A stretch of 55,800 nucleotides of DNA from Hyphochytrium catenoides (lineage: Eukaryota > Sar > Hyphochytriomycetes > Hyphochytriales > Hyphochytriaceae): NCBI GenBank assembly GCA_900088475.1, contig FLMG01000373.1:1-55800 (forward strand), read 5' to 3'. Both the position numbers and the translations under genes were made by a program. Of this stretch, positions 1 through 54,649 are shown in pieces. How positions within the stretch are numbered: the first letter of the stretch is position 1; each line of letters opens with the position of its first letter. The notes beneath the pieces were generated by a model. It had not been told where the DNA came from. It worked only from the letters and a program-made list of their open reading frames with translations, and did not search any database.

Positions 1-881
1 TGTCCGAAAGCAATGTCAAGAGTCTGTTGACGTCACTAGAAGTGTAAGCAAGAGGCCCATCTTTGCTGGCTACGAAATACGTCTGTCTTTGGCCATCGTA
101 CTGAGCATCCTGGCTCAAAGCGGGATGATACTCTTCCAAGGATCTTCTGCTTGGATGGCTTTATTCTTTGTCACAAGCTGCATCCCACAAGTAATTCTGC
201 TATTTAGAGCCCATCCGACACTGCTGTACAGCGTGGTAACGTCATTTGAGTTTGCAATGCTGATCCTGTGCTTGACAGAGTTCATCATTTGCAGCGGTAT
301 TCTAAGGAACTTCGATGGAAGGTAAGTACGCTCCAGCGTTATCTTCGTCACAATCATCCTTGATGGCCGCACGTCGCTAACAGTACGCGTCACTGGCTTC
401 CTTGTCTTTAACGTGTAGGAGCATTCTCATGTCGGGCACCTTGGCGTCGACCATTCTCTCTGCAGTTGTCATTCAGGAGGCAGTGCTCATAGCCAAAGCG
501 AAGGCGTCTCGCTGGGTTGTGTGGCAACTGTCCTCCGTATTGATCTTCCAGATATGCAGTGCGCTGTACTTTCTCACCCTCTCTCAAGATGAACGGAGCG
601 GTACAACAGGAGGAGGGGATGCAGTAGAGGTCGCTTCTGGCGGTATACTTGGCCGCTCGCCTTTGAGCTTCGCTTTGGATGCCCTCTGGAATCTCACGAT
701 CCAAACGTCTCGCAACCTTTATAGCGCAGTGAGAACACCGCACCATCTAGTCTGCGTCATGTCTGACATTCAGTATGACATCACGGTAATAGAAACTAAG
801 GCGACAGCGGTAGGAGGAGGAGCGGCGCAGCGCCACCACCATCCGAAACAGCAACCAACGCATGTAGCATACCACCAGTAG
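1..881 (+). CDS. 12-span membrane family, member A (3' part, cut by window edge)
   Basis: Only the last two exons are in the window: 1-321 (open from base 2) and 419-881, joined by a 97-base intron (GTAAGT donor at 322, TAG acceptor ending at 418) that splits an Arg codon AG|G. Exon 3 supplies spans 7-9, ending in a SFEF-containing helix and NFDGR. Exon 4 supplies spans 10-12, with VVIQEAVLI and the family signature RSPLSFALDAL, then a short His/Gln-rich tail. Two acidic residues that are Asp in every other copy are Glu here (SFEF for SFDF, QE for QD). The family is not one I can name. Exons 1 and 2 must lie left of the window. Confidence 0.85.
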
Positions 882-2286
882 CAGCCGTTAAGTCGCCCAC
901 AACCACTCAGGATAACAACTGCCGGAGAATCAACTCTTTCAGATCTCCGGAAACAGACTTGAGATTAGGAGTTGGCGGCAGAAGAAGAAGAGTAGTGGAC
1001 GAGGCCAGGCCAGGGAGGAGTGGGAATGCTATAATGATGAGAAGGACCTACTACTAGTTATAATAAGCAACAGGCTGGTGAGATAGTGTCATGAGCTTCT
1101 TTGCTCAAGAGTTGGATCTAAAGGACGATGGGCAGCTTGTACACTGAAGCTGCTGCTTCTTCTTGTTGGCCGCCGCGCCAGAGAGAGAGAGACAGCCCTG
1201 CCATCAGATACTGTGACCTACTCATTCAGAGCTTCTCCTGGAGTGGATCATAACAATAGCTTCCTAATCCTCACGTTAGATATACGTAATAGAGATATAT
1301 TATGCCCGCTTTATTTTCGATCAAGAACATCCTGAACAGGCGTTACAAAAAGACCGTTGTATCGTCCAGCAGGAAGTGCACTACTTGTATGGGGCGCAGT
1401 GTGCAAACCATCACCAGGCAGCGTAGCCAGAGGCTGGCGGCTGCTGTACGCCTGACACCAACAGCTCCTTCTTCCCAAGAAGATTCAGTGTGGCGGTGCC
1501 GTTCCGCCCATTGCAGGACGACATCGTCGACCCTTACGCTGCTTCTTATTATGGTGAGGCCCTGTCCTCCGTCCTCTGCTTGCCGACTCATCTCATTCAG
1601 TGGTGGCACCACTGATAACGGCGTCCGTTACGTCGCCAACCGGGCGTTCATATTGAGTGAGAGCAGCTAGGCGATAACGAGTAAGAGTAGCGAGGGCCGA
1701 TCTCAGAGTCTAGGCTGCTGCCGTACTTACTTCCTTGTTGCTCTTACAAATTTGTACCAACTCCTTCCCTGCTGTCAGCTTATAATAGAAGACAGGCCCT
1801 TACCGCAGCAGCGGGGCCATTGACCTTCCTCGTAAACGGCTTCTTCCGCCCGTCATGCTGCCAGATGTCTCTTTCATCCCTTAGCCTTCTCTTTCATTCG
1901 TCTCCTCCTCTCCTTGAGAATACTAGTTGAAGCTGCTCATCAGCCGTGTGCTTATGACACCCTACTGTGACACTCGCGACTTCGTCGGGCGGCAGTGAGT
2001 TGGTCATCAGGAACATACCCGCGTACCCTGGACGGTCCTTCTTTCGATTCACCGAGGAGGCATTCCATTGTTAGTATGGCATTGGTCAGACGCTCTGCTG
2101 TTATAAGTAGGAGAAGTTTAGGGCGTTTAAACGCATTGACGCTGATGAGAACTAGTGAAAGACGTGCTTCATGAAAAGGGTTCCTCCAGTTCGCAAGAGG
2201 AGCTCATTGTTGGCCTTGTCCGCTTGAGCAGGATTTGAGGCAATAGGCCTCTCGCCCACACAGGACACGACGCTTCCTCTCAGATA
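882..2286. other. Intergenic region, no gene recognised
   Basis: About 1.4 kb between two same-strand family members. Open frames here (for example 1302-1670) have no recognisable motif and no splice context. It presumably holds the 3' end of member A and the promoter of member B. No convincing regulatory element was seen. Confidence 0.6.
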
Positions 2287-4795
2287 ATGACGCGGTATTG
2301 GACGCTAAAGCCAGTCCCAAGCTATTTCCCGGAGTACCTTCAATCCCATGAGACGGTTGGCGTGGCACTGCTTCCAGCTAGGGCGATGGACGCCTATCTT
2401 TCAATTCGTCGAAAAGCTCTCTACACGGTCTCGGTGGCTCTTGCCTTCACCTTCGGAATGGCTGCCTTTGCCTTTATAATCCTTTTTGAAGCACATCAGC
2501 CGCCTAGTCTGCGATCTACGGCTGTCGGGATCATGGCTACCGTTTGTCTGTTCTACTTTGCTGCAGCCCAAATACCGGACCTTCATTTGCAACTCTTCAA
2601 GCGCCTCTTCATGCAATGGGAAAGCTGGTTCTTCCTCGTTCAGTCAATGCCTCCAATCTTCCTCCTGGGATATTTCTTTGGCAATCGTGGTCAGATTGCT
2701 TTCGCCTCCACATGTGTGCTAGAATTTCTGGGCGGAATCATCAGCATCTTCTCGGTAGATCTAACGCCACAATTGGAAGGGTCTCAAGTGACTATTTTCA
2801 TCGTCATTAGCGGGACCACTGTCGCTGCACTGTTCTGGCTCTGGTAGGTCTCCCGCGATGCCTGAAGCTCAAATCGACTTCGACATAGCGCTAGCTCTGT
2901 CATTACCTATAACCCTCTTGTTAAGCCTCCCCTCCACCTTTCTAGATGTAGCCATAGTTGGGTCAGCAATGGGCTCTCCCCTTGCCTGCTCAGCGATGGC
3001 TTGAGAATCTAGGAATGCTGATGATTATTGAGAAGTCCCAAGTGGTGACTAATTCATCCTCATTCCCGTTATTCCGTCCTTATCAGGCTTGCGTGGATCT
3101 TATACTTTGACACCTACGAGGGACTGGAAGCGACTAGCATCACCGTGCTAAAGATACCGCTCCATCCTTGGCTGGTAGCTGCTGATTCTCTCGTGCTGAT
3201 GGCCCTGCTGTTACTGCGGCACCTCAGGAAGTACATTTCCATGGTCCGTAGCAGAAAGACTAGAGGCGGCCGGCTCCTGTTCACGATCGTGAAGTGGCCG
3301 ATCATGTTTGAGAGAAAGAATGACGAAGAAAGGAGCGATGAAAAGTCTCTGACGTTCAAGGGCGGGGGACCTTCGCTAACTCTTGCGGATTCTGGCAGCG
3401 TGGTCCTTTGGCCCCGATCTAGCGCTGGCACCAGTTCTCTATCTAAAATCAAAGTCCGGAGCCATCGAGGAAGAAGGTAACGTAAGACGACGTACTAAGA
3501 GAGTTAGCCAAAGCAGCCATGGCAAAGAGTAAGACGCCTAGGTGGATAGTGACACCTTCGTTGTTCCTCATGCTATGCGGTTATTAAGAGAGCTAGAAGA
3601 AAAAGGCATAGATCAAGCTGGTGGCTGGGCGACTTTAACGCCTCCTGCGTTCTGCTGCTGTCCGCAGGAAGCAGGAGGGAGCCGTTAAAGTCTACAGGAT
3701 CCGGCCAGTAGCACCAGAGGTTACTATCAGTGACCACAGTGACCTCTTTCAAGCATTAGATATGCTTCTCAGGAGGTGGAAGAGGCGTTTCCAGAGTATG
3801 GACGTAGGAGCTTTTCCGACGATACCGCAAGCGAAGGAGCAGAACGTAGCGGTTGAGAACCATGGCTCTGCGATTACCTCTATGCTGAACGGGAAAGAGA
3901 TTCTATTGTCAACGCTCTCCATGATGGCGCTCATCTTAGAGGTCACTACGCTAGCGTTAAATGGCTCAACCGCCGTGCTGATTCTATCCGCTCTCCTATT
4001 CTTCTCTTCCACTATATTACTTATGGGGCTTTCTCAACGACCGCTGGTTGGCAAGCTACTGAAGTCCTTCGACTTCTGTGCAATGGCGCTCGTACTGTTG
4101 GAGCTCCTTATCTTCAGTGGACATTTGCTTCAGTGGGACAGAAGGTAAGCACCATGATGTTTCTCTTTGCGCTGGAGGGTCTCGACCTGAGAAGTTTTCT
4201 CCTTCTGCTAATGTGACATAGGTTTGTCTTCATTCTATCGGTGGCTCTGGCGAGCATAACCTCCATGGTCATCCAAGATGCAACCCTCATACCAGGGCCT
4301 AGGAGACAGCAATGGATATCCCTGCACCTGTTAACTCTACTTGGCATAGAAATCGCTGGCATCTTCTACCTTGTAATGAACTCTGGCGGGCCTACTCCAG
4401 CGCCTACACCTACCACAGAGGGAGATCAGAACCATCCACTTGCAATGAGCAAGCTTGGACGTCCTCCGCTAAGCTTTGCACTTGACGCTCTCTGCACGAT
4501 GCTCATTCACACGTCAAGGTGTCTATTCTGCGCCATGTGCTACCCAAACTCTTTCGTGGCAATTCTTTCCGAAGTCGAGTACGAGACCGATTACATCGCT
4601 GCCGTTCAGAGCACAGCAGACTGCAGCGACAGCCTCACTCAAACAAGCAGCGACTTTGCTACAGCTGCTGCTGGTGAGCCACGAGGAGATGCGAAGACTA
4701 GCAGAAGGTTAAATCTAGCTTCGATGGGGAAAATGGTGGCTCCGCAACAAAATGAGAAGAATCTGCGGCCCGAAGCAACAGGTGTGGACTCTTAG
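2287..4795 (+). CDS. 12-span membrane family, member B
   Basis: Four exons: 2287-2843, 3087-3476, 3668-4144, 4222-4795, giving 665 residues. All three introns (243, 191, 77 bases) have GT-AG ends and are in phase 2 (TG|G, AG|G, AG|G). The start is the first ATG, just before the family motif RYWTLKP. Predicted spans lie near residues 45-67, 77-97, 113-131, 137-157, 167-192, 213-233, 394-413, 418-437, 451-471, 476-496, 507-528 and 560-582. The long loop between spans 6 and 7 is polar, with KVYRIRPV just after the second intron. Landmarks: PWLVAADS (Asp about 219), SFDF, VIQDA (Asp about 494) and RPPLSFALDAL. No known family was recognised; a transporter or multi-span receptor is possible, without direct evidence. 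Confidence 0.88.
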
Positions 4796-5030
4796 TATCC
4801 GCAATACCTATTATGCCCGCTTGCTATTCTGAGAGCACCAGCTATGCGATCAGCAGTCTCTTCTCCTACTACGAGAAGCAAGACAATGAGTTGGAGCTGT
4901 GTTAACGATGGGATAGAAGTCAGCCAAGAGCTGAGTCACTTAGTCCATTGCACTCATTTTTGGATATGAAAGTGAGACTAGACACCCATTAGCTTCTCAC
5001 AGACATAGACTTAACTAACGTCTGGTGTGC

Positions 5031-7455
5031 CTAGCCGGGGGCCGACGAGCAGAAATCTTTTGACCCATCCTCCGTGCTTGACAGTTCCTTGACTTGGCCT
5101 CCGGCGGGCTCCTCAAAGACGAGCTTCTGAGATGGGCCTTCTAAGAGCATCTGCCCTCCTTTACAGTCCTTCTTACACTTTGATCCTTCACTCTGCGGTC
5201 TTGTTGGGTCCGCTTGCTCTATTGCTTCTTTCTTTGCGTCAGGAGGGTCCTGTATGAAGTCTATCTCATAAGCTACATCAGACATTATAGAGACGAGAAG
5301 ATGTGGCGATTGAACCATGCTAAGCAGGCTCCGGACGGTGTGCATGATGACAGTTGCAAGCGCATCTAGCGCCAAACTTAGAGGAGATCGGGTGACGCCA
5401 GAGAGGAAGTTGGCAGTGTGTCCCAGCAACGAGGAAGAGTCGTCGTGGGGTGTGAGAAAGACCAGGTAGACCCCACACGTGAGCTCCACGAGAAGAAGCA
5501 CAACGAAGTGAAAGACAAGCCATCGCTTCCTTCTCTGCAGAGGCATTATGACAGTATCTTGCATGATTAAAGAGGAAATGACAGTCAGGGCGACAGATGT
5601 CACGCTGAAGCACCTAAGCAACGAGAAGCAGAGTTAGAAAACCGGAGTTACCAGTGGAAGCATTTGTAAGGCATCGAAAAGAGACAACTCTACCTGGTGT
5701 CCCAGCTCAGTAGGAAGCACGCAAAGACAAAGACTTCCAACAATGAGAAGAGCATGACGGCAAAGTCAAAGGATTTCGTGAGCTTCAACAGAAGAACTGG
5801 GTGTGCTCGACCGACTAGCAAAACGTTGGCGCTGAAGCCGACGAAAAAGAACAGCACCGTGAAGGCCAACGGTCCGTCAACTTCGACCAGTGCCGCCTGA
5901 ATGATGGTCGCGGCGGCAGCAAGGGCAGACAGAGTCGGCTCTTGTCCGACAAACCTCGACACACTGGGAGCAAAAGTTGAATCTCTAGATGACGAGGAAG
6001 ATGCCGGCTGATCACGAGAACAGGGCGTCGTCGTCAAGGACGAAGCTCCGCGGCTTCTTTCTCCACGATCAGGCCGCTCCGGTAAGGTCTTGTTGCTCTT
6101 CCTCATAGGGCCTAATCTGCGCCATCTGTGGTTGACGACCCAGCAGATGTACTGCAACGTGTCGCTGAAGTTGTCTAAGGAAAATGGTTCTTGGACAGGG
6201 CGCACCTTGTACACCTTGCGTCCGCCCTTCATCCTGTTATTTTAGCAATAAAGGAGCAGGGAGAAAGTAAGGATCCGCTCTCTTTTCAGCTGTCATATCG
6301 CCGCAACCCCCGACGTCTGTCACTCTTTAGCGATACCTTTGTCTCTTCTTGTTCTTAGGAGTGTCTGGGACGGATTGGGCTTGTCTTGGCGGCTCTGTGG
6401 TGGGTAGCACTGCTCCCTCATCTTCTTCTAACGGCCCAGGGGCTGCAGCTTGAAGAGAAGATAACCTTTCCAGCCGCCTCTTGGAGGACACATCTTCTTC
6501 AATGGTTAGCGGCCACTTGATCGTCGTGAAGCGCAGGCTGCCGCCCTTAGCCTTTCTTCTCCTGGCTGCCATGATATACCTAAACAAGAACTGGGCATGA
6601 AGCACAGCAATGACGACCAGAGAATCTGCAGCAATCAGCCAAGGCCGAATTGGAATCTTGAAGATAACGAGCTCGGTCTCTTCCATCCCTTCATATCGGC
6701 TAAAGTAAAGCTTCCCAGCCATTCTGAAGGTAACAAACAAGAGACACATCGTTAGCAGCAGCGACGACTAACAAAGACCAAACAGCAAAAAGATAGCGAG
6801 GGTCAGCATAAGTTGGGTCTCTTCAATAGCTGTTGACTTACAATAGCATCGCCAGGGCCGCCACTAATGTGCCTTCGATGACTAACAGAATGGTCATGGT
6901 AGAGCCACCTAGATGCGGCATAGAGTCCAGCAAGAATGGTGCTAAAGCCGTAGCTATGATGCCAAGGACAAAGCCGCATGCCCGTGCATTCTGACCTCTC
7001 ACTCTGTTGATGTAAGAAAAGAGAAATACGGGCGGGATGCACTGAAAGACCGAGAGCCACCCTTCGAATTGACTGAATAGCCGACGCAGAAGTTGCAGCT
7101 GCAGCTCGGGGACAACTGCCAGTGTGTAGAAGGCATAACAGGCGGCGGACAAAGCCCCAAAGGCAGTTAGATCAATGTCCGTCGGCTCCCCACTGTGTAG
7201 AAAGGTAGTGTAGAAGCCGACGTGTCCTAGACTTAGAGCGGCCGCAAGGCTTAGGTTGTACAGCGGAGACCTGCGTAACACTGTCGAATAGAACCTTCCA
7301 ACACGAGGCGGGAAGATTATCTTAGCACCGTTATCTCTGGAGTCCAGGAGAGGCGGGAGGTAACCATCATCCGGCCTTAAGGTCCAGTATCGAGGCATCA
7401 TGCTCTCCACGCTCTTCTCAAGAGGAGAGGAAGGAGCCTCTCTCCTCGCGGCCAT
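5031..7455 (-). CDS. 12-span membrane family, member C
   Basis: Minus-strand exons 7455-6842, 6723-6337, 6233-5694 and 5613-5031 give 707 residues. Introns are 118, 103 and 80 bases, all phase 2. Exon 1 begins MAARREAP and reaches PRYWTLRP about residue 21; an ATG pair just before PRYW is an alternative start. Family marks: QFEGW before span 3, PIRPWLIAADS in span 6, RKVYKVRPVQ after intron 2, SFDF at span 9, LIMQDT in span 10 and RSPLSLALDAL in span 12. The C-terminal tail (about 70 residues after span 12) is polar, Lys/Glu-rich and probably cytosolic. It is convergent with member B, 235 bases from its stop codon. Confidence 0.88.
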
Positions 7456-18728: not shown

Positions 18729-20910
18729 CTAGATTCTGCCTGCTTTCTTAGCGGCGAGAGATGCTTCTTCTTCTGGCGGCGTAGCTATGACTCGACCTCC
18801 TTCTGCTTTTTCTCTTCCTTCCTTCCCTTTCATATCCTCTTTCTTCTCTTGTCTATCAATCATTCGGAACTCGACGTCCGATACGACTGACAAGAGCAAG
18901 TGTGGAGCTCTATAAAGGCGCAGCAAGCTCCTCACAGTGTACATCGCGATTGTCCCCAAGCCATCCAGCGCAAGACTTAGCGGCGACCGGAGTGCGGGGA
19001 TGGCTAGACTGGGTAGCCAGGGCTTTACAGCGTCTTCTGTCGGGCTGAGAAAGATAAGGTACAGACCAACACTGCCTTCCAAGAGCAGAAGAGCAACGAG
19101 GTGCGGCACAAGCCAGCGCTGCCTGCGCCTCACAGTAATGATCAGAGTGTCCTGGATAGCCATGGAAGAGAGGACAGCCACAGCCAACGAGGCCAGAACC
19201 CAGCATCTGTAGAGGTAAAATGTTAGTCTCGCTATTCTGACACGCATGGACAGCAGAGCAATCATCATGTCCGCGTGCAGAAAAGAACGGGTGCAGATGT
19301 CAGCAGCGCTAAGCGCGATCAATAATAAAGCCTCCTACCCATAATCAGGAGGATATGAAGAAAGTAAGCGCAAATAAGTAGCAGAGAGCACACTGATGAA
19401 GACAAGAACAAGAAAGAGGTGGTCGCAGGGTGACGGAGCTGTAACAGGTGGCTCGTGCAACGAGGACAGCCTCCGTATTGCTCCTTATTAGATTTCTTGC
19501 ATCATACCTGACATCCCAGTTTAATAGATGGCAGGCGAACAGAGAGAACTCTAAAAGAGAGATAACCATGACCACAAAGTCAAAGGACTGCACCAGCCTC
19601 AACAATAGAGTCGGGTGCGCCCTTGACAGTAGGAGGAGGTGCAGGCAGGAGATGAAGAAGAAGCAGAGGCCAATAACAGCGGAGACGGGCGGGTTGGCAG
19701 CTGCAGCCGCGCATTGAATACCAAGACCCAGCAGCGCGGCTCCTGCAAGCCAGTGCTCTCTCCCTGCAATCATGACAGTCCAACTCTGTTGCTCCTTTTC
19801 TCTTCTTTTTATCGCTAAATGTCTTGATGGAGAGGTTATGGTGGTCTCCGACCCTACCTGAGCACCTCTTTGACTTGCAGCCGCAGGACCCACGCCTGTC
19901 CAGCGGCAGCAGCAGAAGATGCGACTCCTAGTGATGACCCACCGCCGCCAAAGATGGTCCGCGGCGTCCAGACAGCAGGGTGCCTGCACTGGGTAGACAG
20001 CGAACTTGATCTTCCTTCTTGGCCTGGGGGACCTTGTATCTCTAAGACGTAATGGCGGGATGTGACATTAGACCTATGTCTTCAAACCCGAGCGCTTTAG
20101 CCCACGAACCTCGTCCCTGCCATCACTTCTCTCCCTGTGGCACACGGAACCGCCCTTGAGTCTTCACTTGCAGACGGAATGACGTTCTTTCCTGAATCCT
20201 GTTCGCTCTTGCGCTTTGGTCCTTCCTTAACGTCGTCCCTGCTGCTGCTGCTGGTGTTGTTGTCCATGATAGTGGCTGCCACATTGGGCTTCACCGCTGC
20301 TGTTGTCGGTACCTCTAATGAGAAGTGAGTCTCCTCTAGGACTTCAAGTGGCCAACGGATGCTAATGCCGGGTAGAACTCCGTCCTTCCGTCCGAGGCGC
20401 CTAAGGATAGTGAAGTTTCGCCAGAGCTGTTGAAGGTGAAGAAGAGAGAGAACGACGAGAGAGTCTGCGGCGATCAGCCATGGGCGGATGGGAACCTTTA
20501 TGAGGGTGAGCTCCGTTCTGTACATTCCTTGATATGAGCTGTCAAAGTACAGCTGCGCTGCTATCCTAAGGAAAGATAAGAGCCATGAAGGGTTAGCAGT
20601 CGAAGGATAGTAGGTGGTGTCAACCAGCATTGGTTCTTCCGGCCTCGTAGGAGAAGGATTTGTCATAAGACAAAGAGATAAGGAGAAACAGAAAGAGGCA
20701 CCACCAGGATGACAGACAAAAGGAAAGACACCAGCTAGACTGGTGATAGTAGGGAGCTAAGGTAAGAGGATGAGAGCAGGAATGATGATGTCTGACAGAG
20801 GACGAGAACGAGAGAAAGCAGAGAGGAAGTTAAAGAGAGAGAAGGACAGAGAAGACGACAGACAGACAGACAGACAGAGAGAGAAGAGGAAAAGAGAGAA
20901 AGAGAGAGAG

Positions 20911-20975
<65 letters not shown>

Positions 20976-32879: not shown

Positions 32880-34781
32880 AAGAGAGATTGGGACTACCAT
32901 CATGCTGATGAGGGTGTTCGGAGGCGTAAGCAATGCGGACGGAAGCCATCCAGTTATCTTCTAAAGCGACTGAGGTGATGGGCACCGCGCTGCTAGAAGC
33001 GATGATTAAGGTAGCGGAACTGCTTTAAGATTGTAAGGAGAAGAAACAGGAGCGAACGGTCTCAGATGGGAGAAGATTACCTTGTTGCTTGCCTGTTAGT
33101 TGACACTTGCAACCACAAAGAGGAGGTGATAGAATAGACCAAAGATCCGTTCAAGCGTCGCCGTAAGAAGAGCTTCTGCTGAGTAAGTACTTCAGCCAGA
33201 GAGACTTTGGAGACGATATGCAGGCAGAGGACTACCTTGAGGAGCTATGGTGTCGAAATTCAATGAAGGTCAAGAGGTGAATGAAGAGGTGATATTAAGT
33301 CTCTCTTAGCAGCTTCACTCCTATGAAGAAAGCACTTTGACCCTTATGCTTGCGCCGTTGTCTTGGAGGTTTCCGGACCGAGGTCCATCCAGATGCAACT
33401 TCCTCATACCGCTGGCGGTGGTGGTAGAAGTGAGCATATTGATATTAAGGTGCTCCCCTGTCTGCTGGCTGCTTCTTGTTCCTTCATGATATTTAAGACA
33501 GAGTCACCCCTCTACCTCCTACTACTAGGTGTAGGGACTACTACGGTCATCATCGCCCTTGGCATCCCGGGTCTGCTGCCTGCTACTCCTGCTGCTACCT
33601 CTTATAATGTCGCCTCCGGGGTCACCGGGGCGAGCAGCGGCGGTAGGAGAAGAAGAGTATATAAGTGATGGCACACCTGGCGAAGGACAGTATCATTATT
33701 AAAGATAGCCGCAGGAAGGAAGACAGACGGAAAGCGGGAACGGTGGGGTCTCAGAGGGCGAGGATGGGAGGAGGAACGATGCACAAGGCTTGTGTCATCC
33801 TCTCAGCTTAAGACTCATCACATGCCCTTTCTTCCTCCTCCTTCCTCTTCCTTCTCTGTCTTCTTTCTTTACTCTCAGTGCTTTCACGCTTATCTTCTCT
33901 CTATCTCTAATGTGCCAACCTTTGATTCTGACCCATCCCTCTCTGCCCTGAGCCCTCAGCTCCATGGGTCTCCGAAGATGTTCTGATGGGTTCCTTTCCA
34001 CTGCTCAAAACATAAAGACAGCGGCAACAGCGGATAGTGGAGACACAGCTGCCTAGACCTCTGCACTGCTGCAGAACAGTCAATCGCCCGTCCGCTCGCC
34101 CATAGCCGGGTTGGACCCCTGCTAGAAATAGACAATCAATACTTATGATTTTATCCCGTTAGAAGCGACAATACCGTCTGCCAAAGTGGGAAGGATCATG
34201 CACTCTACCGCTATTCCTTCGCGAGCTAGTGAGTTAGGACACGACTATTATAGGGCAAGTGCTCCCTTCCACGTGATCCAGCAGGCGGGAAGGAAAACTC
34301 ACAGGCTAGTAGTGTCAAGCTTCACCTTGATCTCCAGCTAGCCAGAGGCTTGTACATCTTGTTGGTTGGTGCTCTTGTCACCATTCGGATGAGCAGAAGA
34401 ATGCCTCAGTCAGGAACTGAGATGAATTATGATCTTCAGGCGATTATTATAGCCAAACACTAGCGCCTGTCTCTTCATGGCATTCTCCCTTCGGTCTGGG
34501 CTTTATCCGGATGGCGCGCTCTCTTAGTTCAGCCTTGGCCATTTGTGTCAAGCGCCTTGCGCGTCTTCGTTTCTATGCATTTCTTCAAGCCACTCTTCTC
34601 TTCCCACTCCTCTATTTCCTATCTCCCTTTCTTCTCCTCTTCTTTTTTTTTATTCTATCGTTTCCACTTCTTCTTTGCTTTTGCTTCTTCTTCATGACGC
34701 ACACTCTCTCTCCTCCTTTATTCTTTCTCTCGCACCTTCTTTTCTCCTGTCACTATCATATTCTCTGTTCCCTGCTTCTAG
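32880..34781. other. Intergenic region downstream of the P450 pair
   Basis: About 1.9 kb. The first ~200 bases resemble the sequence downstream of the decayed P450 at 40431, for example the AAGCGACTGAG and GCGATTAAG-like stretches, so they belong to the duplicated unit. A small hydrophobic frame at 33393-33668 is listed separately. The remainder shows no gene. Confidence 0.55.
33393..33668 (+). CDS. Possible small membrane protein (91 residues)
   Basis: An ATG-started frame, MQLPHTAGGGG, with two hydrophobic stretches (KVLPCLLAASCSFMIF and PLYLLLLGVGTTTVIIALGI) and an Arg-rich C-terminus. There is no family match and no splice evidence. It could equally be a chance frame or a single exon. 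Confidence 0.22.
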   Translation: MQLPHTAGGGGRSEHIDIKVLPCLLAASCSFMIFKTESPLYLLLLGVGTTTVIIALGIPGLLPATPAATSYNVASGVTGASSGGRRRRVYK

Positions 34782-35130
34782 ACTGGCATACATTCTCTAC
34801 TTCTATCCTTATAAGTGATGGAGCACACTGCCATCATAATCTACTGGGGTTCCGATCCGCTGCCGGCTCGTGGCCGTTGACTCTATTATTGTCGTCGTGG
34901 CGCTGCTTCACTGTCCTCTCTTGCAGCTACTAAGATGCTCTTAGGAGCGAACCTTGTGCTCCTTCCCTCTGAAGACATGCTGGTGTCTTATTCCTTCTCC
35001 CTTAGTCTCCACGTGGACGCGCTTCTGCTATTGACTTTGATGCTCCAAATCTGACTGAAAAGTCTGTTGTGTCCATCGCCAGGCAGCTGCACCAGCTCGT
35101 AGTGTTGGCTCTCTCCTTCAGATAGACGAC
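34782..35130 (+). pseudogene. Decayed membrane-family copy (exon 2 and exon 4 fragments)
   Basis: From 34782, just after a CTTCTAG acceptor-like site, the sequence reads LAYILYFYPYK then MEHTAIIIYW. After a one-base frameshift it reads VPIR, then LVAVDSIIVVVALLH, which is family exon 2. From about 34935 it resembles exon 4: LVLLPSED, SLSLHVDALLLLTLML, an in-frame stop, then in another frame SLLSIARQLHQLV. Exon 3 is missing. The closest relative is member I (51137-54649), which has YILYLYPYPGMEHTAITIY and LVLLPSEG. Frameshifts and stops show it is dead. It lies tail-to-tail with member F, exactly as member I lies with member H. Confidence 0.8.
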
Positions 35131-35711: not shown

Positions 35712-38664
35712 TCAACTTGCCTCGCCTCCGTCCTTCTTCTTTGCCGCTTTGCGGTTTTCTAGTTCAGCCATGAGCTCCTCTGCCGTTAGGTTGATAACCT
35801 GGCACTCTATGCGTGAGAGGCCGGCGACAAGCATGTCCGGGTTGTAAGCAATGCTAAACAGGCTCCGGACAGAGTAGACAAAGATGGTAAACAGCCCGTC
35901 TAGAGCGATAGAGAGAGGTGACCTAGAAAAGATAGATTTAGCTGCTTCCCCTAATCGTAGATCGTTGTTGACGTCCTCCAACGGGCGGAAGACGAGATAA
36001 ATGGCACAGCAGACTTCGCCAATGAGTAGGACTGAGAAATGAGGGATAAGCCATCTGCGGCGCTTCTGAGGAGGCATCATGATCGCGTCCTGCATGATGA
36101 GAGAACTGACGACAGTCACACAGGTAGAGCCAACTACGAGCGTCCTGGTGGTGCACAGCAGGCCATGGGCAGAGAGCAAGCGGTGGAGTGGGCAGGAAAG
36201 AAGGAGAGAGTTAGAGGCAGGCGTTGAGTTGAGAAAGAGAGAGAGCAGGAAAGAGAGACCGATGACAATGCGAAAAGAGAGAAAAGAAGAGAGAGAGAGA
36301 CAGCGAGAGAGAGCGAGAGAGAGCATAAGAGACGGCGGTTAGAGAGTAGGAGGACGAGAATACCCTCGACCTCATAAAGTATAGCAAGAGAGGATGATTC
36401 AACGCAAAGAGAAGAAAGATGGAGTGAGAGCTTGTTTTACCTTTCGTCCCAGCGGAAGAGCAGGCAGGAGAAGACAAAGAACTGCAGGACGGAGAAGAAA
36501 ATAAGGGCAAAGTCGAAGGACCGCAGCAGTTTCTTGACGAGCATCGGGTGACAGCGACATAACAGCAGCGTGTTTGTCAAGCAGGTGAAGGCACAGAGCA
36601 CAACTTCGGCGGAGGGAGAGACGCCGAGCTCTATCATTAGCATCTGCAGCAGGGTCCCGGTCAGTGGTGCCAGAGAGAGAAGAGGCTCTTTCCCTACAAG
36701 CACATTGTGAAATTTCTTCTCCTCCTTCTCCTCTTCTTCTCGCCTTTGCTCATGAGCCGCATCTGCTAAGCGAAAAGGCCGTGATGGCAGGATTCTCAGC
36801 TTCCTTACGCCGTCTCTCTTGTCCTCTCCGCTGAGAAAGGCTTGGAACTTCTTGAGCCCAGACTGAAGGCAATCCTCGTGTGAATCGATGAGGATGGGCT
36901 TCTGCACAGCTCGTAGCTTGTATATTCGCACTGTTTTTTGGCTACTAATAGAGACCTTTCGGTTAGCCAGTAGAATTTACTAGGCATATTGAACAGCTAA
37001 GAAGACACTGCCTCTTCGTCTGCTCTCTGCTCCCTCTCCTCTCTCTGCTATCTTCTCTCACTTCTTCTTGTCTGTCCCTCTGTCTCCTAACCTCTCTCTT
37101 GCTCTCTCTCTCTCTTTCAGTGCTGGTGGATAACCTGATGTTAGTACCTGGAACCGTCTTGAGGTTTCCTTGGCTGAATATTACTAGTGAAGTGGTCGCC
37201 CTCCCTGGCCTGGCAAAGTTCAAGCGCTCTCTGCTGCCCATCTTTCCTCCTGTCAGCGGCGGCTGATGGCACATCCTCTGCCCTCTTCGGGCCCGTTGTT
37301 TCTTCGGCAACCACAATCCTCTGGCTAGCCTCTCCTCTCACCGGCGATGAAGTGGTAATTGTTGCTGTCTCCTTGCCCGTCACACTTTCTGTACCATCTA
37401 TTGCACTGAGGAGTGAGGAGGCTGTGGGTGGCAAGAAAGAGACAGACTCTATAACTAGCGGGCATCTGATGTTTAGAAAGTCACTGGTCCCCTTCAGGCT
37501 CTTGGACTGCCTCGTCTTGGCCAGAAGCTTATTCAGCTGCTGCAGACAGAGAAGCACGACAACCACCAAGGAATCTGCAGCGATAAGCCAGGGCCGGACC
37601 GGGACCTGAGAGACGATAATTTCCATCGCTTCTATGCCCTCGTAAGGCTGGAAATAGAATATCCACGTGATTCTGAGGAGACGCAAGGACGAAGTGAGAG
37701 GAAGCCAGTCATCATCATCATTGCGGACGCCCAAGATGAGTACAATTGTGGCCCAAGAAGACTCTGGAGCGTGGGGAGGGAGGTAAAGGACAGTAAGAAG
37801 AGGAGCTACTAGGAGAAGGGAACAGGAACTGATAAGTGCCCCGCCGGATTCAAAAGGTAGGAGAAGGTGATTAGAAATCGTCTCCAAAGAGGAGGAGAGG
37901 TCAGGTCTATAATGCGAGGATGGTTAGAAGGGGACTGACCGGGAAAGCATTGCCACGCAGAGGGAGATACCGACGATCGTAAAGCGGGTCGTGGTCTTTG
38001 ACAGGCCTACGGCTACGGTGTCAACGATCATTGGGACCAGGACAATCAACTGCAAGGCCAGAACAGATGCAGAAGCTCTGGACAGCTGTCCAGTGACAGA
38101 GAAGTGGAACGCACAGACACCAAGCGCAGGCAGCGTCTGTAAGATATAGAAGCCCAGCTCAAACTGACGACACAGCAGTTTTAGCAGTTCTGCATGGATT
38201 TCTGGGATCAGCGTGGAGGCGTAGACGACGGACACGACGGTCACGGCGTATCCAACCGACGAAGAGGTCTCATCCCCGTGCTTGCTTCTAACTTCTAAGA
38301 GATAGAGGAACCCGATGGCCATGGTAACCATAGTCACGCCGCAGCAGAGGATGACATAAAGAACGTTACGGCGAAGATGGTAGTAGAATTCTTGCATCGC
38401 GGAGGGAAACAAAACGCGAGACAGAGTGATTCTGGAATCCATAAGTTCTGGGATGTAGTCAGGCTGAGGCTTGACGACCCAGTACCGGCCAGCTTCTAGG
38501 ACATCATGCGGAGGAACAGGAAAAGAAGCGGAAGGGCACGCTGTGCTAGCAGCAGAGCCGTGGAGGTTGAAAGCAGGAGGAGAAGACGCGGAAGAACGGG
38601 AAGCGCTGGCAGCTCCCGTTTGGTCTTCTGCTTCGACCATCGGCCCAACTCTTGGCATTTCCAT
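35712..38664 (-). CDS. 12-span membrane family, member F
   Basis: Minus-strand exons 38664-37940, 37672-37148, 36941-36441 and 36144-35712 give about 727 residues. Introns are 267, 206 and 296 bases, all phase 2. An N-terminal extension of about 60 Ser/Ala/Pro-rich residues precedes GRYWVVKPQPDYIP. Family marks: CRQFELGF, PVRPWLIAADS, KTVRIYKLRAVQ, SFDF, LIMQDA and RSPLSIALDGL. The exon 2 acceptor-proximal residues are Arg-Ile-Thr-Trp. The exon 3 acceptor has two AGs three bases apart; I chose the one that aligns with member H. It is nearly identical in protein sequence to member H on the opposite strand about 9 kb away, with the same exon lengths to within a few codons. Confidence 0.88.
36284..36330. 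repeat. GA-rich microsatellite in intron 3 of member F
   Basis: GAGAGA/GCGAGA purine tract on the plus strand, reading as CT in the transcript. It lies between the exon 3 donor at 36440 and the exon 4 acceptor at 36145. Confidence 0.85.
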
Positions 38665-42679: not shown

Positions 42680-44930
42680 ATGAAGGGTCGGTATTGGAAG
42701 CTGACCCCAACTCCTGATTACCTTCCCGAAGTGCTCCTTTCCTGGGAGACAATGATCACCACCTGCTTTCCGTCGAAAGTCACTAAGCTGTACTTGAGGA
42801 GGTTAAGGGGAACTATAGCTTGTGGTGTGACAATCAACCTTTCCCTGATTGTGGGAATGATTGGACTTGGGTGGACCATGGCCGACTCTGGTGCAGCTAA
42901 AAGCGATGTCACTTCGACGGTGTTTGCATGCATTGGTGCCATTGCTCTCTGCTTAAACACTTTAAGTTTCATCCCAGAGCTTCATGTTCAACTATTTCGA
43001 AAGCTGTTCACTCAGTTTGAGGGATGGTACTTCCTATATCAGTGTGCTCCCGCAATAGCACTCTTGGGGTATGTCAATATTCAGCGAGGCCAATATGCTA
43101 GGGCACTAGCATTCGCTGCTGGTCTAGTGGATGCTGGATTATCTCCTCTCTTCTGGGAAACCATGCCTCAAATTGGAGGTTGGAAAAGCCTTCTCACTCT
43201 TCCTCTTCTGTTTAGCGGGTGCCTGATGGGTTTCGTTACGATGCTGTGGTGAGTCAATGTCCCTTCTTACGCCGACGCTCTCTAGCTCATCTGACCAGAT
43301 TCTCTTATTATTACCCATGTCAGTATGGCATGGATGCTTTACTCAGAGGCGTACGAGGGCCTGCAAGACACGGAGATAACGTTCTTTCAGGTTCCCATTC
43401 GGCCCTGGCTCGTGGCCGCCGACTCCTTGGTTGTCCTGGCTGTGCTTCACATTCAGATCTTTGTAAGGCAAGCAATGGCCAAGTCCAGGCGGAGAGCTCG
43501 TGATGGACAGTTACGCTTCTGCAGCATAAAGTGGCCCTTGCTTCTTGAAGAGGATGAACATCAGAGCATCTTTAAAGAAGAGCAGGCTGCTGTTGGACTT
43601 CGCCCAGGCAATGTTGTCCCAGTTCATCCGCAGTTAGCAGCCAATGGGAAGGGCTTACTAGGAGGAGGACTCATTCAGGTGAAACAAACCAAAGCAAAGA
43701 CCAAAGAACAGAGGTCAGTCTTCTCCTTTTCAGAACCGCATGTGAGTGAGTTTTGGCTGCTCACAGCAGTGGTGCGGGGGGGAACGCGCCTCACATATGG
43801 GGAAGGTGATTGATCATCAACCTCTACCCTCCCTGACGGTTGATTTGTCCTGATTCTTCCTTTCACAGCAACCAAAGAGTTAAAGGAGCGCGCAAGGTGT
43901 ACCTGGTCTACCCTGCACACACCTTGGTCTATCTTGACGCTTATGAAGACGTCCTTCACCGCTTGACGCGAGTTCTCTGGCGAACTCTGGGAAAGTCGCT
44001 CACCTACATCCAGTGGCCCGTAATAAGGAAAGCTCCTGGTGTCGTAAGTGACCGTCCTGAAGAAGGTAAGGATGAGGCACGAGCCCCAGCAGGTGTGCCA
44101 CGGCTCCTAGGGCTGGAGCCCGCGCTAGCAGGAGTAGCGTTGCTATGTATTGTTATTCAAGCTTTATGCGCGGGCATACAAGGACCAGACAGCCCTGGGA
44201 TAAGCTTGTCTTTCACGGTCAGCTGCGCATCCAACCTGCTCTTGATCTCTAGAGCACATCCTGGCCTACTATTCAAGCTGCTAAAGTCCTTCGACTTTAT
44301 TGTCCTGGTCTTCTCCCTCTTAGAATACGTGTTCTTCTCAGCTCTACTGTTTGAAGCAGATAACAGGTCAGTATGGCTGCTAGATGATGGATCGGAGCCT
44401 TTTGAGTCTTTACAGCCGTTGTTCTGACAGTTTGGAATCCTCCTCCTCCGTCTAGGACGCTGATCGTGCTCTCCTTGGCCTTGACCATAACATCATCCTT
44501 CATCCTGCAAGACGCTGTCCTGGTCCACATAGTTGGAAAAAGACGCCAGTATTGGCTGGGAATCCAGCTCCTGTTGCTGTTGTTGCTCCAGACACTATGT
44601 GGCTTCTATCTCTTGTTCTTCGTCCCGAAAGAAGAGTCAGCTTCTACTACGCACCAGAATTCTACCACGCAAAGCATACTCTCGCTCATGACAAGATCTC
44701 CTCTTAGCTTGGTTCTCGATGCGCTGGTAACCATCGCCATATACACGGGAAGGAGCCTCTTCACTCTATTACGGCAGCCCAACCAGCTCGTAGCTATTTG
44801 CTCACCTATCGCCTACGAGTTCCAGTTCATCCCTCCGAATGAGGTCTCGGCGCTAATGGACAAGCTAAGAGTTAGCGCCCCTAGTAAAGACCAACACCGC
44901 AAGATTGTGGTCCAAGCGCAGTCATTATAA
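42680..44930 (+). CDS. 12-span membrane family, member G
   Basis: Exons 42680-43248, 43324-43713, 43869-44366 and 44456-44930 give 643 residues. Introns are 75, 155 and 89 bases, all phase 2. It starts MKGRYWKLTPTPDYLP with almost no N-terminal extension. Marks: QFEGWYFLYQ, PIRPWLVAADS, RKVYLVYPAH after intron 2, SFDF, FILQDA and RSPLSLVLDAL. The exon 2 acceptor is CAG|T, so the split codon encodes Cys rather than Trp. The TM6-TM7 loop is short. It is the only plus-strand member in this half that has no close inverted partner in the window. Its role is unknown. Confidence 0.88.
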
Positions 44931-47730: not shown

Positions 47731-50663
47731 ATGATGGAAGGACCACGGGGGAGTTTGCTGATCAGGGAGGAACAGACGGGATCTACCAGTGCTTCATCTT
47801 CCCCTCCTTCGCCGTCTCCCCCTGCTGTTGATCTTCACGGCTCTCCTGCTAGCACCACAGCTTGTCGTCCCTCTTCTGACCCTGCTGCGCCTCATAATGT
47901 CCTAGAGCCTGGTCGGTACTGGGTCATCAAGCCTCAGCCTGACTACATCCCAGATATTTTGGACTCCAGAATCACTCTGTCGCGCGTCTTGTTTCCCTCA
48001 GCGATGCAGAAGTTTTACTATCGACTTCGCCGTAACGTCCTCTATCTCATCCTCTGCTGTGGCGTGACTATGCTTACCACCGCCATCGGGTTCCTCTATC
48101 TCTTAGAAGTTAGAAGTAAGCATGGGGATGAACCCTCTTCGTCGGTAGGATACGCCGTGACCGTCGTGTCCGTAGTCTACGGCTCCACGCTGATCCCAGA
48201 AATCCATGCAGAGCTGCTTAAAGCGCTGTGTCGTCAGTTTGAGCTCGGTTTCTATATCCTGCAGACGTTGCCTGCGCTTGGTGTCTGTGCGTTCCACTTC
48301 TCTTTCACTGGACAGCAGTCCAGAGCTTCTGCCACGGTTCTCGGCTTGCAGTTGATTGTCCTGGTCCCAATGATCATTGACACCTTAGTCCTCGGAGGCC
48401 TCTCGAAGTCCATGACGCGCTATACATTTGTCGGTATCTCGCTCTGCGTGGCAATGCTCTCCCGGTCAGTGCCTTCCTAGGAGTCCTCTCATCACAGGCT
48501 TATCTCTTCTACCTTATCTCTCCTTCTTCTTCTTGGAGAAGATGTCCTGTCAAAACTCCTGTTATCTTTGTGATACCCTATCCTTGCGGTTTTCCCCCCT
48601 TCTCCAGCTCTTCAAGGTCTCCCTTCCGTAAGATCGTACTAAATCCTTGTTGGCCATATACAGCGTCTTAACCTTGTCAACATTGACTTGGCCTTCTTCG
48701 TCCTTCTCTCCTTAGAATAGTCTGGATATTCTATTTCCAGCCTTACGAGGGGATAGAAGCGATGGAGATTGTTATATCTCAGGTTCCCGTCCGGCCATGG
48801 CTCATCGCGGCAGACTCTTTGGTGGTCGTCGTGCTTCTCTGTCTGCAGCAGCTGAATAAGCTTCTGGCCAAGCTGAGGCGCCCCAAGAGCCTGAAAGGGA
48901 CCAGTGACTTTCTAAACATCAAATGCCCGCTAGTTATAGAGTCTGTCTCTTCATTGCTGCCCACAGCCTCTTCACTCTTCAGTGCAATCGATGGTGCAGA
49001 AAGCTTGGCAAAAAAGGAGGAGACAGCAACAAGCACTTCGTCACCCGTGAAGAGAGAAGCTAGCCAGAGGAAGGTGACCGACCAAGGGACAATGCAACCA
49101 GCTAAGGCGGAGAATGTGCCCTCAGCCGCTGCTGACAGGAGGGAGGAGAAGCAGCAGAGGGCTCTGGACCTTAGCCATGCTAGGGAAGGTGCTCACCTTA
49201 TCGATACGCTGAAGAAGGCGCAAGACGGTCCCAGGTACTAACTGCAAGCTATCCGACAGAAAGTGCAAGAGGAGGTCAGGAAAGAAAAGGAGAGAAAAGC
49301 AGTGAGAGAAGATAGCAGACAGAATCAATGAACGACGCAGTGTCTTCTTAGCTCTTAGATATGCCTAGTACGTCTGATTGGCTTACTGGTTCGTCTCCCC
49401 GACGAGCAGGAAGAAAACAGTGCGAGTGTACAAGCTACGAGCTGTGCAGAAGCCCATCCTCATCGATTCACACGAGGATTGCCTTCATCTTGGGCTCAAG
49501 AAGCTTCACGCCTTTCTCAGTGGGGAGGACAACAGGAAAGGCGGCGTAAGGAAGCTGAGAATCCGGCCATCACGGCCTTTTCTCTTAGCAGATGCGGCTC
49601 ATGAGCAAAGGCGAGAAGAAGAGGAGAAGAAAAAGAAGAGAGCTCACAATGTGCTTGTAGGCAAAGAGCCTCTTCTCTCTCTGGCACCACTGACCGGGAT
49701 CCTGCTGCAGATGCTAATGATAGAGCTCGGCGTCTCTCCCACTTCCGAAGTTGTGCTCTGTGCCTTCACCTGCTTGACAAACACGCTTCTGTTATGTCGC
49801 TGTCACCCGATGCTCGTCAGGAAACTGCTGCGGTCTTTCGACTTTGCCCTTATTTTCTTCTCCATCCTGCAGTTCTTTGTCTTCTCCTGCCTGCTCTTCC
49901 GCTGGGACGAAAGGTAAAACAAGCTTTCACTCCTTCTTTCTCTTTGCGCTGGCCCATAGGTGGGGTGGGATAGAGTTCTCCATGAAAGTTCTTTCTACTG
50001 ATATAGCTCTTTGAGGTCTAGGCTACTATCTTCCTACTTTTACTTCTAACATCGTCTCTTATGATCTCATTCTGTCTCTTTCTCCTTTCTCTCTCTCTTT
50101 CTTTCTTTTCTCTCTCTTTGGTCTGTCATCGGCCTCTCCGTCGTATCTATAAACTCACGCCTGTCTCACATTCTTCTTCTTCTCTCCCGCATTTACGTGC
50201 TCTCTTCCATGACCTGCTGTGCACAACCACCAGGACGCTCGTAGTTGGCTCTACCTGTGTCACCGTCGTCAGTTCTCTCATCATGCAGGACGCGATCATG
50301 ATGACTCCTCAGAAGCGCCGCCAATGGCTAATCCCTCACTTCTCAATCTTACTCTTTGGTGAAGTCTGCTGTGCAGTTTACTTAGTCTTCCGCCCGTTGG
50401 AGGACGTCAGCAGCGATCTACTATTAGGAGAAGCAGCTAAATCTTTCTTCACTCGGTCACCTCTCTCTATGGCTTTAGACGGTCTTGCCACCATCGTAGT
50501 CTACACTGTCCGGAGCCTCTCTAGCATTGCTTATAACGCGGACATGCTTGTCGCCGGCCTCTCACGCATAGAGTGTCAGGTTATCAACCTAACGGCAGAG
50601 GAGCTCATGGCTGAACTAGAAAACCGCAAAGCAGCAAAAAAGAAGGACCTTGGGGCTAGTTGA
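47731..50663 (+). CDS. 12-span membrane family, member H
   Basis: Exons 47731-48464, 48716-49234, 49410-49913 and 50234-50663 give 728 residues. Introns are 251, 175 and 320 bases, all phase 2 (CG|A, AG|G, AG|G). A Ser/Pro-rich N-terminal extension precedes GRYWVIKPQPDYIP. Marks: CRQFELGF, PVRPWLIAADS, KTVRVYKLRAVQ, SFDF, LIMQDA and RSPLSMALDGL. The exon 1 donor is GTCAGT, as in its near-twin member F, and unlike most other copies. It is convergent with member I, 473 bases from its stop. The exon 3 Lys/Glu run (EEEEKKKKRAH) marks the cytosolic-looking loop before span 7. Confidence 0.9.
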
Positions 50664-51136: not shown

Positions 51137-52474
51137 CTATTGCGTTGAACTCCCGTCTTCCCAAGGATGTGGACTCTTCTTCTTCATTGTCGGTGGAGAG
51201 AGAGACGAAGCAGGGAGATTGAGAGAGGGAGGAGGCTCCAGGGTTTCGACCTTGTACTCTATCCGAGAGAGAGTCATCACCAGTAGGTGCGGCTGCCTGG
51301 CGATAGATAACAGACTTCTCAATGTATAGACCATCACAGTCAGAAGCGCGTCCAGCGCGAGACTAAGGGGAGAACGATTAAGGACAGACAGAGTACCACC
51401 GAAGAGGATCACTCCTTCGGAGGGAAGGAGCACGAGGTACACGCCTAAGAGCACCTGGGTAAGAACAAGAGAGGAGAGAACCGGGACAAGACAGCGACGT
51501 CGTCTGCTTGGCGGCATGAGCATGGAGTCTTGAGGGAGAAGCACCGCCAGCACCGTCATGGCCAGTGAAAGGGGCACCAAAATCCTGAGAGAAAAGAGAC
51601 GAGAGAGAAGAGAGAGCTTCACAATTCAGAAGAGCAGAAGATGGTGCGGATCCCGCGAAGAGAGACGAAGAGGAAGAGGAAGAGGAGAGACGGGAGGGTG
51701 CAAATGGCAAAGAGAGAGACCGAGTAGAGGGAGAAAATAGGGAAACCAAGGGACGAGACCCGAGAGGCATAACTATAGAGAGAAACGACCGGCTCACTCT
51801 TTCCTCAGGTTGGCCTCTTACCTAAGATCCCACTCCAAGAGGACGCAAGAGAAGAGAAGAAACTCCATAAGGTTGAACAGAAGAAGGGCAAAGTCAAAGG
51901 TTCCGAGAACTTTCATCAGGAGAGCAGGCTGGCAGCGGAGGAGGAGAAGACAGCTTGGACAGAAAGAGAAGAAGAAGAGGAAAGCCAAGAGATAGCCCAG
52001 AAGTTGCTCTTCTTCTTTCCCTCTCGTTCCCGCTCCTCCGTCAACCTTGTCAACCACCAACATGAGCAGGATCTGTGCGACAAGACCCAGGAGAGAGAAG
52101 AGAAAGAGAACTGACTCTTTTCCAACGACACAAGCAACCCACCAGCTTCTCTCTCCTTCCTCTCTTTTCCTGGCAGGATAACCCGCCATGTAGCATGGTT
52201 CAAGGGGATGAGAGAGAGAAGGCGAGATGAGAACCTTCTTGAATGCTGAGAAGCGGAAGAGGAAGTGCTCGAAGAGGAAAGAGAGAGAGAGAAAGACGTC
52301 CTCATGTGTATCAATATAGAAAGGCTCCTGCAGGGGTCTCAGCCGGTAAATCCTGTTATCTCTGTTGCGTCTGCTATAGTATTAGAGGAGAAGAAAATTT
52401 CATCGTCAGACTTCGTGCAGCTTGTCTTTTTCTCTCTCTCTCTCACTCTCTCTCTGTCTCTCTCTGTCTCTCTC

Positions 52475-52523
<49 letters not shown>

Positions 52524-53501
52524 CTCTGTATGTCTGTCTGCCAGTACTCTTATCATAGCTCTCTACTTTCTCTCTCTCTATCGCTTGCTCTCTTCATGCT
52601 CTCGGTCTGATCTTTTCGACCATGTTTCACCTTTCCCGTCTTTCTATCTTCTCGCTATTATCCTGGTTGGCTCTGCCCTATTCTCTCTTTTCTCCGTCAC
52701 TCTTTCTCCATGAACTGACTTGATTGTCGCGTGTTTCAGGGCTTACCTTGTCACTCGTATCCCTCGCTGGGTAGACTTGTTCTTCTTGTCCATAATAGCG
52801 CTCTTCAGTGTCTCCACATCTCCGTCTTCTTCTTCCTTTGCTGCCTCTTTGTATGCGTCTTTGCAGGTTGTTTGTTCTTCCCTGAGGGACTCAGAACTGG
52901 CAGGAACTCCGTTCTTTCCTCTTTCCTCATCGTTTCCTGCTCTGACAGGAGAGAAGCACGAGAAGAGCTGACGCGTTTCTCTGTTTCCTCTCGCTTGTTG
53001 CGCTCTGATCGTCTCACTTTTCTCTATCTTACTTTCTGGAGATACCTTACCAAGAGGAGAAGGAGAAGTCTTGATGTCTTCTCTCTTTCCGTCCTCTGCT
53101 CCTCGCTCGTCCTTCTTCCCTCCTGACAATAACATTTTCCGTGGTTCCCCTCCCTTCCGGGTCTTCTGTTCTCTCGCGTCGTCTTCTTCTCTCCATCTCT
53201 CTATCGCCAGCGGACACGTAATGTTCACAAAGTCAGAGGTCCCTCTGGCTGCCGTCCTCGAGAGTTTGCTGATGTATCTATGCAGCTGCTGGAAGTTGAG
53301 CAGCACCACGACGACGATAGAGTCAGCCGCCACGAGCCAGGGACGGATTGGGACCCGGTAGATTGTGATGGCAGTGTGCTCCATCCCTGGATAAGGATAC
53401 AGGTAGAGAATGTAGGCCACTCTATGAACCGAGCAAGACACGACGAGTGATAGACCAAGAGGGAAAGAGAGAGGGAGACAGATAGAGGAAGAAAGCGTGT
53501 G

Positions 53502-53546
<45 letters not shown>

Positions 53547-54649
53547 GGGTTGCGAACAGCATAGCAAAGGTTAGGCAATATCAACTTCTGACTTGGAAAA
53601 ACCGAATGTGCAGAAAAACGAGAAAGCCAGCAGCCAATACGTGGACACCTCTAGCCCGCAAGAAGTGGGAAAGGATCTCAGACGAGAGACAGAGAGACCC
53701 GACGCTGAGAAGAGGAGCAGCATGGGAGAAGATGGCCAAAGCCCCTTAAGAAGTGCGAAGACTGACAAACTCACCGTGCAAGCACCAGGATGACGAGAGA
53801 GATTCCTGCTATGACAAAGCGGGTAAGACTCCTGGAGAGACCTCCGTGTGGCATGGAGTCAAGCATCACAGGAGTTATCACACAGCCACCCAAGCCAAAG
53901 AGAGAGAGAAGGACCCTGGCCCAGTCTCCCTGAGCGGAGAAGTGGTAGGCAAAGAGAGAGAGAGGCGGAAGGCTCTGGAAGACGTAAAAGTAGACTTCCC
54001 ACTCACAGAAGAGAAGGGCAAGAAGGTCTCGATGGAGCTCTAGCAGAACGGAAGATAGATAGATGAGTAGAGAAAGAGCGGCACAATAGCCAAGGATAAC
54101 CGAGGAGAGAGACAGTGACAATCCTCCCCTAGGGTCATCCTCCTCTCTCTCTCTTTCTCCTAGAAGAAGAATGACAAAGCCTGCGGAGCCCAGCGTCAGG
54201 CTTCCACCAACCCAGAGGAGAAGATAAATTGGACTTCTCCTGAGAGAGAGATAAAAATTTCTCAGCGGAGCAGGAAGCATCTGTCTTGCAACGGTTCCTT
54301 TGGCGTCGATGTAAGGCTTGAGATAGTTAGACAGAGGCTTCACAACCCAGTATCGGTCAGGATAAAGGGAAGAAGATGAAGATATAGGCGGAGAGCGAGG
54401 GAGAGTGTGCGAGGAGGAAGGAGACAGAGAGAGAAGAGGGAAAGGGGAGCTATGGCATCCGGGTACTGGGATGGCAGGAGCTGTTAAGAAGGGAAGAGTC
54501 AAGGGAGGAGAGGAAGAGAAAGAGTGAGAGAGAGGAGAGAAACTGTTTTCTTGGAGCTTCTTCGCCTCTTCAGGAGGCATCTCTATGGGCGTCACAGCGG
54601 ATGAGGAAGACCATAGATTGGACCGCGACATACTCTTATCTTCCATCAT
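51137..54649 (-). CDS. 12-span membrane family, member I (longest copy)
   Basis: Minus-strand exons 54649-53775, 53421-52747, about 52370-51822 and 51584-51137 give about 848 residues. Introns are 353, ~376 and 237 bases, all phase 2. A ~105-residue Ser/Pro-rich N-terminus precedes DRYWVVKPLSNYL. Exon 2 carries PIRPWLVAADS, then about 165 charged residues rich in Lys, Glu and Arg, the largest span 6-7 loop in the family. Exon 3 includes YRLRPLQEPF and a TFDF motif in place of SFDF. Exon 4 has LLPQDS and RSPLSLALDAL. The exon 3 acceptor is uncertain (52370, 52361 or 52352 all keep frame). Introns 1 and 2 contain GA and CT tracts. Confidence 0.85.
52430..52522. repeat. (CT)n microsatellite in intron 2 of member I
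   Basis: CT repeats with TCTGTC interruptions on the plus strand, reading as GA in the transcript. Confidence 0.95.
53514..53544. repeat. (GA)n microsatellite in intron 1 of member I
   Basis: Pure GA run on the plus strand, reading as CT in the transcript, between the exon 1 donor at 53774 and the exon 2 acceptor. Confidence 0.95.

Follow-up and report, generated by a model that had tools for sequence, protein, structure and literature searches.

A family of predicted twelve-span membrane proteins in Hyphochytrium catenoides, without detectable relatives in the databases searched and with a likely internal six-span repeat

The window analysed here, a stretch of 55,800 bases that makes up the entire contig C131 of a 42.5 Mb assembly in 1105 contigs, carries many copies of a gene for a polytopic membrane protein, which raises the question of what these proteins are and whether they belong to any described family. 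An earlier note on this DNA had counted nine copies, one of them cut at the left, and one fossil, spread over both strands. Exon profiles, splice models and tblastn bear out this count, giving eight complete copies (B-I) with four exons each and predicted products of 628-842 amino acids (aa), the cut copy A and the fossil (Table 1). The left edge of the window is the contig's own end. Profiles built from the exons of B-I recovered the copies in the window and one additional piece at 34849-34923, which masked tblastn lengthened into the fossil; over 34726-34905, the fossil is 43% identical to copy I.

Table 1. Family copies and other features; positions without a prefix are those of the window.
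Feature	Position	Strand	Exons	Remarks
Copy A	1..881	+	exon 3 remainder 1-321, exon 4 419-881	Cut off at the left contig end; exon borders assigned by eye
Copy B	2287..4795	+	2287-2843, 3087-3476, 3668-4144, 4222-4795	665 aa
Copy C	5031..7455	-	6842-7455, 6337-6723, 5694-6233, 5031-5613	707 aa
Copy D	18729..21745	-	21087-21745, 20110-20565, 19508-20023, 18729-19206	702 aa; two junctions set by hand among scored candidates
Copy E	23426..25689	-	25127-25689, 24573-24992, 23935-24414, 23426-23849	628 aa
Fossil	34675..34923	+	exon-2 remnant	Two stops; nearest copy I
Copy F	35712..38664	-	37940-38664, 37148-37672, 36441-36941, 35712-36144	727 aa; recent inverted duplicate of H; two junctions set by hand
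Copy G	42680..44930	+	42680-43248, 43324-43713, 43869-44366, 44456-44930	643 aa
Copy H	47731..50663	+	47731-48464, 48716-49234, 49410-49913, 50234-50663	728 aa; one junction set by hand
Copy I	51137..54649	-	53775-54649, 52747-53421, 51822-52352, 51137-51584	842 aa
C119 match	L070:1-700	+		Very divergent further family member or remnant
C702 copy	L042:4157-7398	-		Divergent copy
C738 match	C738:17230-17448			E 8e-4, query C702
C480 match	C480:13287-13562			E 3e-3, query C702
First ORF of pair	12721-13212	-		
Second ORF of pair	16679-17848	+		
First P450 gene	26991-29298	+		
Second P450 gene	30548-32879	+		
CBM_1 protein, contig C104	L035:644-2419	-	single frame	591 aa
Beta-tubulin gene	L044:793-2133	-		
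Beta-tubulin gene	L045:796-2160	-		

Sixteen complete genes were modelled, eight in the window and eight on six other contigs, and all show the same four-exon layout with three matching join places. Exons were located as open frames and joined by a scored enumeration of GT-AG, phase-2, stop-free joins (GC being allowed if strong); phase 2 was first read by eye in copies C and G and then imposed on the splice search, and five junctions in D, F and H were chosen by hand among the scored candidates. The 48 GT-AG introns tallied in the 16 genes, like their phase 2, thus reflect search conditions and are not independent evidence; the informative part of the tally is the presence of an open join at the matching place in 48 of 48 cases. 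GTAAG is the commonest donor (14/48), and CAG or TAG forms the acceptor in 46/48. Intron 2 has the least certain borders because it sits in a variable linker, and the starts, placed at the first in-frame ATG, are uncertain. For the inverted pair F and H, dS is 0.33 and dN 0.11, and the dN/dS of 0.32 indicates that the reading frames are constrained; silent sites are saturated in five of six other copy pairs that were tested, and nearly so in the sixth, F/I. Chance open frames or dead repeats could be suspected from the fossil, the simple repeats in introns, the four copies broken at contig ends and the splice borders found under preset conditions and from DNA alone, but 16 models open from start to stop, in a single exon layout, and the purifying selection between F and H make this highly improbable. 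Instead, this selection and the finding of a single layout in all 16 copies, which lie on seven contigs, speak for real genes under constraint.

The family extends well beyond the window. Genome searches returned 69 matches for protein C and 61 for protein C104a; they fall on the window's contig and on contigs C137, C545, C1065, C1019, C159, C104 and C702, those outside the window reaching E 1e-37. A match on contig C119 (E 7e-4, query C104a) was read by eye as a divergent 22nd copy. The genome thus holds at least 22 copies, at least 13 of them on eight contigs other than the window, and 22 is a lower bound because of the weaker places on C738 and C480, which may be very divergent members or remnants. 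In the divergent C702 copy, exon 1 is broken within the LLRRLFxQFE helix; the copy otherwise keeps the family layout, and the break looks like a gained intron. This copy, the cut copies A, C545d, C1065b and C104b and the C119 fragment are left out of all statistics on 16 rows. The family had been described as locally expanded, and a recent expansion of this kind is not supported: apart from the copies elsewhere, the eight window copies are scattered among the others on a tree of the 16 proteins (5 label changes, a value as low in 216 of 500 label shuffles), so that most of the array is old paralogues; the one recent duplication seen is F/H (dS about 0.33). Since the four cut copies are broken by contig ends, the contigs may be fragments of larger arrays.

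A profile search of the spliced proteins against Pfam, which the earlier note had proposed as a check on its statement that the family matched no named one, gave no confident match to a characterised family, and the statement holds within Pfam, NCBIfam and PDB sequences. Nothing credible emerged from Pfam (eight full proteins and 17 exon-1 pieces), NCBIfam (eight proteins) or three PDB sequence profiles; taking a curated cut-off or E<=0.001 as the mark of family membership, no match in these collections rose that high, and the best in Pfam was DUF805, found in 3/17 exon-1 pieces with a best E of 0.0017. Word-filtered searches of 5.8 billion proteins, in which 8000 candidates were scored each time, yielded none at E<=1, either with the alignment of the eight full proteins or with that of 17 exon-1 sequences. 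The first cytochrome P450 gene of the window, used as a control in the same protein set, returned two matches at E<=1e-5, with 29% (unnamed) and 28% (stickleback CYP7B1) identity; the latter indicates that the set includes eukaryotes, and only two proteins for so large a superfamily mean that the word filter is blunt and the null result in this set weaker than it looks. As the control reached no close relative of the source organism, the family could exist in unsampled kin. On viral and prokaryote contigs, the exon-2 motif of nine copies gave 1 and 11 pattern matches, respectively, none of which was confirmed. In the literature, the motif letters were not found, and none of the keyword matches concerned such a family, as far as titles and the beginnings of abstracts tell. 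Judged by these searches and by the predictions described below, this is a sequence family without detectable relatives in the databases searched, yet of familiar build.

Hydropathy averaged over the 16-row alignment, at a threshold of 0.9, gives exactly 12 spans arranged as 6+6, in keeping with the approximately 12 proposed from a first reading; single proteins at a stricter threshold of 1.5 give only 7-11. Near-membrane K+R is higher on the presumed inside (even) side in 16/16 rows, and the N-terminus, the C-terminus and the central linker are accordingly predicted to lie inside. The central linker is variable and has a mean length of 197 residues. Several of the motifs that had been listed as common to the copies recur in 15 or 16 of the 16 rows, namely the W of RYW (15/16), P-W-x-x-A-A-D and Q-D (each 16/16), the F and the D of SFDF (each 15/16), and the C-terminal R-x-P and D-x-L (both 16/16). 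By entropy, conservation is strongest in spans 6 and 12, in outside loop 9-10, which is very short, and in inside loops 8-9, 2-3 and 10-11; it is weakest in spans 1, 2, 4, 7 and 8, with span 5 next. The predicted outside loops average 3-27 residues, one reaching 46, a count that misses insertions of up to about 18 residues between spans 7 and 8 in some copies. The suggestion of an antigen-like family is thereby disfavoured: the long variable parts are predicted on the inside, and an antigen role seems unlikely because the exposed loops are small.

The same features bear on whether the proteins could be chemosensory or signalling receptors, whose spans would bind small molecules while inside loops and linkers contact cytosolic partners. 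Rhodopsin-like and gustatory-receptor-like seven-span receptors are likewise multi-copy, divergent and membrane-spanning, and about 22 divergent copies, several of them in arrays, would suit such a role, as would long variable cytosolic linkers and the finding that inside loops 2-3, 8-9 and 10-11 exceed most spans in conservation. However, the 12 spans of the 16-row average and their internal two-fold 6+6 repeat differ from the seven-span receptor layout, no receptor profile was matched in Pfam, and linker and tail carry no signalling domain (Pfam, eight proteins). A receptor role is considered unlikely, though slightly less so than the channel and MFS readings discussed below.

The 6+6 layout reflects a feature that the earlier note had missed, as the protein appears to be a tandem repeat of one six-span unit, a conclusion that is well supported by the comparison of its halves, though not proven. 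Each unit would open with a short strand, [RK]-x-[WY]-x-[LV]-x-P, which leads into spans 1-2; an amphipathic helix on the inside, LL[RK][RK]LF-x-[QS]-F-[ED], would separate these from spans 3-4, and a turn with D...P...[RK], likewise inside, would follow before span 5 and a span 6 that starts with P-x5-D. The RYW..KP start thus corresponds to the strand after intron 2, and PIRPWLIAADS to RSPLSLALD; the alignment of the repeats pairs RYWxLKP with RVYRLRP, LLRRLFRQFE with LLLKLLRSFD and the span-6 motif with the span-12 motif. P-x5-D opens both span 6 and span 12 in 16/16 rows, and an A stands two before its D in 16/16 rows for span 6 and 12/16 for span 12. The order of span conservation is also alike in both halves (r 0.95; 2 of 720 orders are as good). 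Intron positions do not match between the halves and lend the repeat no support.

Half-versus-half scores point in the same direction with unequal force. In HHalign, these elements lined up in order, but the local significance was weak (P 0.008-0.019, Prob 2.5-5). With whole halves, the real score of 24.6 was exceeded by 2 of 100 window-shuffles (26.2 and 25.6) and 1 of 100 hydropathy-shuffles (26.2), and with spans only, none of 100 + 100 shuffles exceeded the real 23.1 (best 23.0 and 22.6). The HHalign rotation control was uninformative, since the score of the real pair was shared by the five top rotations and by the median. A semi-global test with our own profile aligner, which was designed after the local HHalign result had been seen and compares the halves end to end, scored 38.1 for half 1 against half 2 and 25.6 against the reversed half. 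None of 300 reached 38.1 in each of three shuffles (z 5.1, 6.4 and 4.1; best hydropathy-shuffle 37.3), nor did any of 200 rotations (mean 29.1, z 2.0, best 36.8).

A duplicated six-span unit could also belong to a channel, a lipid scramblase or a membrane enzyme. Some channels are built in this way: two-pore channels consist of two six-span repeats with a cytosolic linker between them, which the family resembles, and conserved polar residues lie within its predicted spans. Voltage-gated-like and two-pore channels differ from it, however, in that the span 4 consensus of the family lacks a basic residue and its loops 5-6 and 11-12, with about 17 and 27 residues, are too short for the usual pore loop. 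Nor did Pfam yield a credible match to any ion-channel or enzyme family, and such a role looks doubtful.

Secondary transport is placed first because a parallel 6+6 repeat, a cytosolic linker and a symmetric acidic pair fit a carrier best, and the family is most likely, if only tentatively, one of secondary transporters with two six-span halves and a symmetric aspartate pair. In such a carrier, the two halves would rock around an axis of pseudo-two-fold symmetry; the aspartates paired between spans 6 and 12 may bind a cationic substrate or the coupling ion, and substrate range might be set by the divergent spans 1, 2, 4, 7 and 8. That spans 6 and 12 and inside loops 2-3 and 8-9 are among the most conserved parts agrees with a core that moves and substrate-facing spans that vary. 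Both transport with its coupling and the part given to the aspartates are inferred here from layout and conservation. Against the carrier model stand a homologue search that returned no relative of known function, an MFS_1 profile that is blind to the family, a weak HHalign repeat score, shuffles and rotations that came close to the semi-global score, and span counts below 12 in single proteins at the stricter threshold.

The familiar build recalls the Major Facilitator Superfamily (MFS), whose members have 12 spans in two parallel six-span repeats and keep both ends, as well as the long loop between the halves, in the cytosol; inside loops 2-3 and 8-9 are conserved in them, and each half of the fold is made of inverted 3-span repeats. 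By prediction, the family agrees in its 12 spans as 6+6 (single proteins giving 7-11), its cytosolic ends, its long central loop and the placement of its conserved inside loops, and might hence be a very divergent MFS branch whose sequence similarity has eroded. Yet no MFS match was obtained with the eight full proteins at E up to 1 or with the 17 exon-1 pieces up to 10. In this genome, MFS_1 (PF07690) matched ten times but never on a contig that carries the family (9 of 60 candidates were scored), so that the profile detects MFS genes here but no family copy. In addition, the loop motif LLRRLFxQFE differs from the glycine/aspartate/arginine motif of MFS loops, and the family has a short strand before each half and P-x5-D in spans 6 and 12. 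Descent from the MFS thus seems a doubtful explanation.

Beyond the carrier model, a bolder possibility, to which we give a somewhat small chance, is a transporter or receptor superfamily with its own fold, in which a six-span unit with a cytosolic strand would have been duplicated once, with symmetric aspartates in spans 6 and 12, and would have expanded to at least 22 old divergent genes in one eukaryotic lineage, absent elsewhere. A polytopic family that has no relatives in Pfam, PDB sequences or large protein sets is a candidate for a new fold, and here the internal repeat offers a structural test, as the two halves must superpose. Lineage-specific membrane families are common in little-sampled protists, and many prove to have known folds after structure prediction. 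If the proteins are transporters, the lineage would have grown a carrier family of its own, with at least 22 genes, in addition to the known carriers.

Several other genes were observed in the window and near family copies. Two ORFs in the window share similarity around HRSLQRRL..LNS (pairwise E 8e-14, 29% over 106 columns); neither gave a credible Pfam match, and they constitute, judged from this alignment, a second small family without Pfam assignment. Two cytochrome P450 genes form a tandem pair in the window, their first-exon frames being 66% identical over 267 columns. On contig C104, near a family copy, a single frame encodes a protein with two fungal-type cellulose-binding domains (CBM_1), the C-terminal part of which matched no Pfam family. 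Among markers of lineage, chlorophyll-binding proteins gave no match and Zn2Cys6 gave one; elicitins gave none either, which does not show their absence since the control genomes were equally silent, and the only hint came from tubulins. Finally, two beta-tubulin genes were seen (Table 1), and their products presumably resemble stramenopile tubulins.
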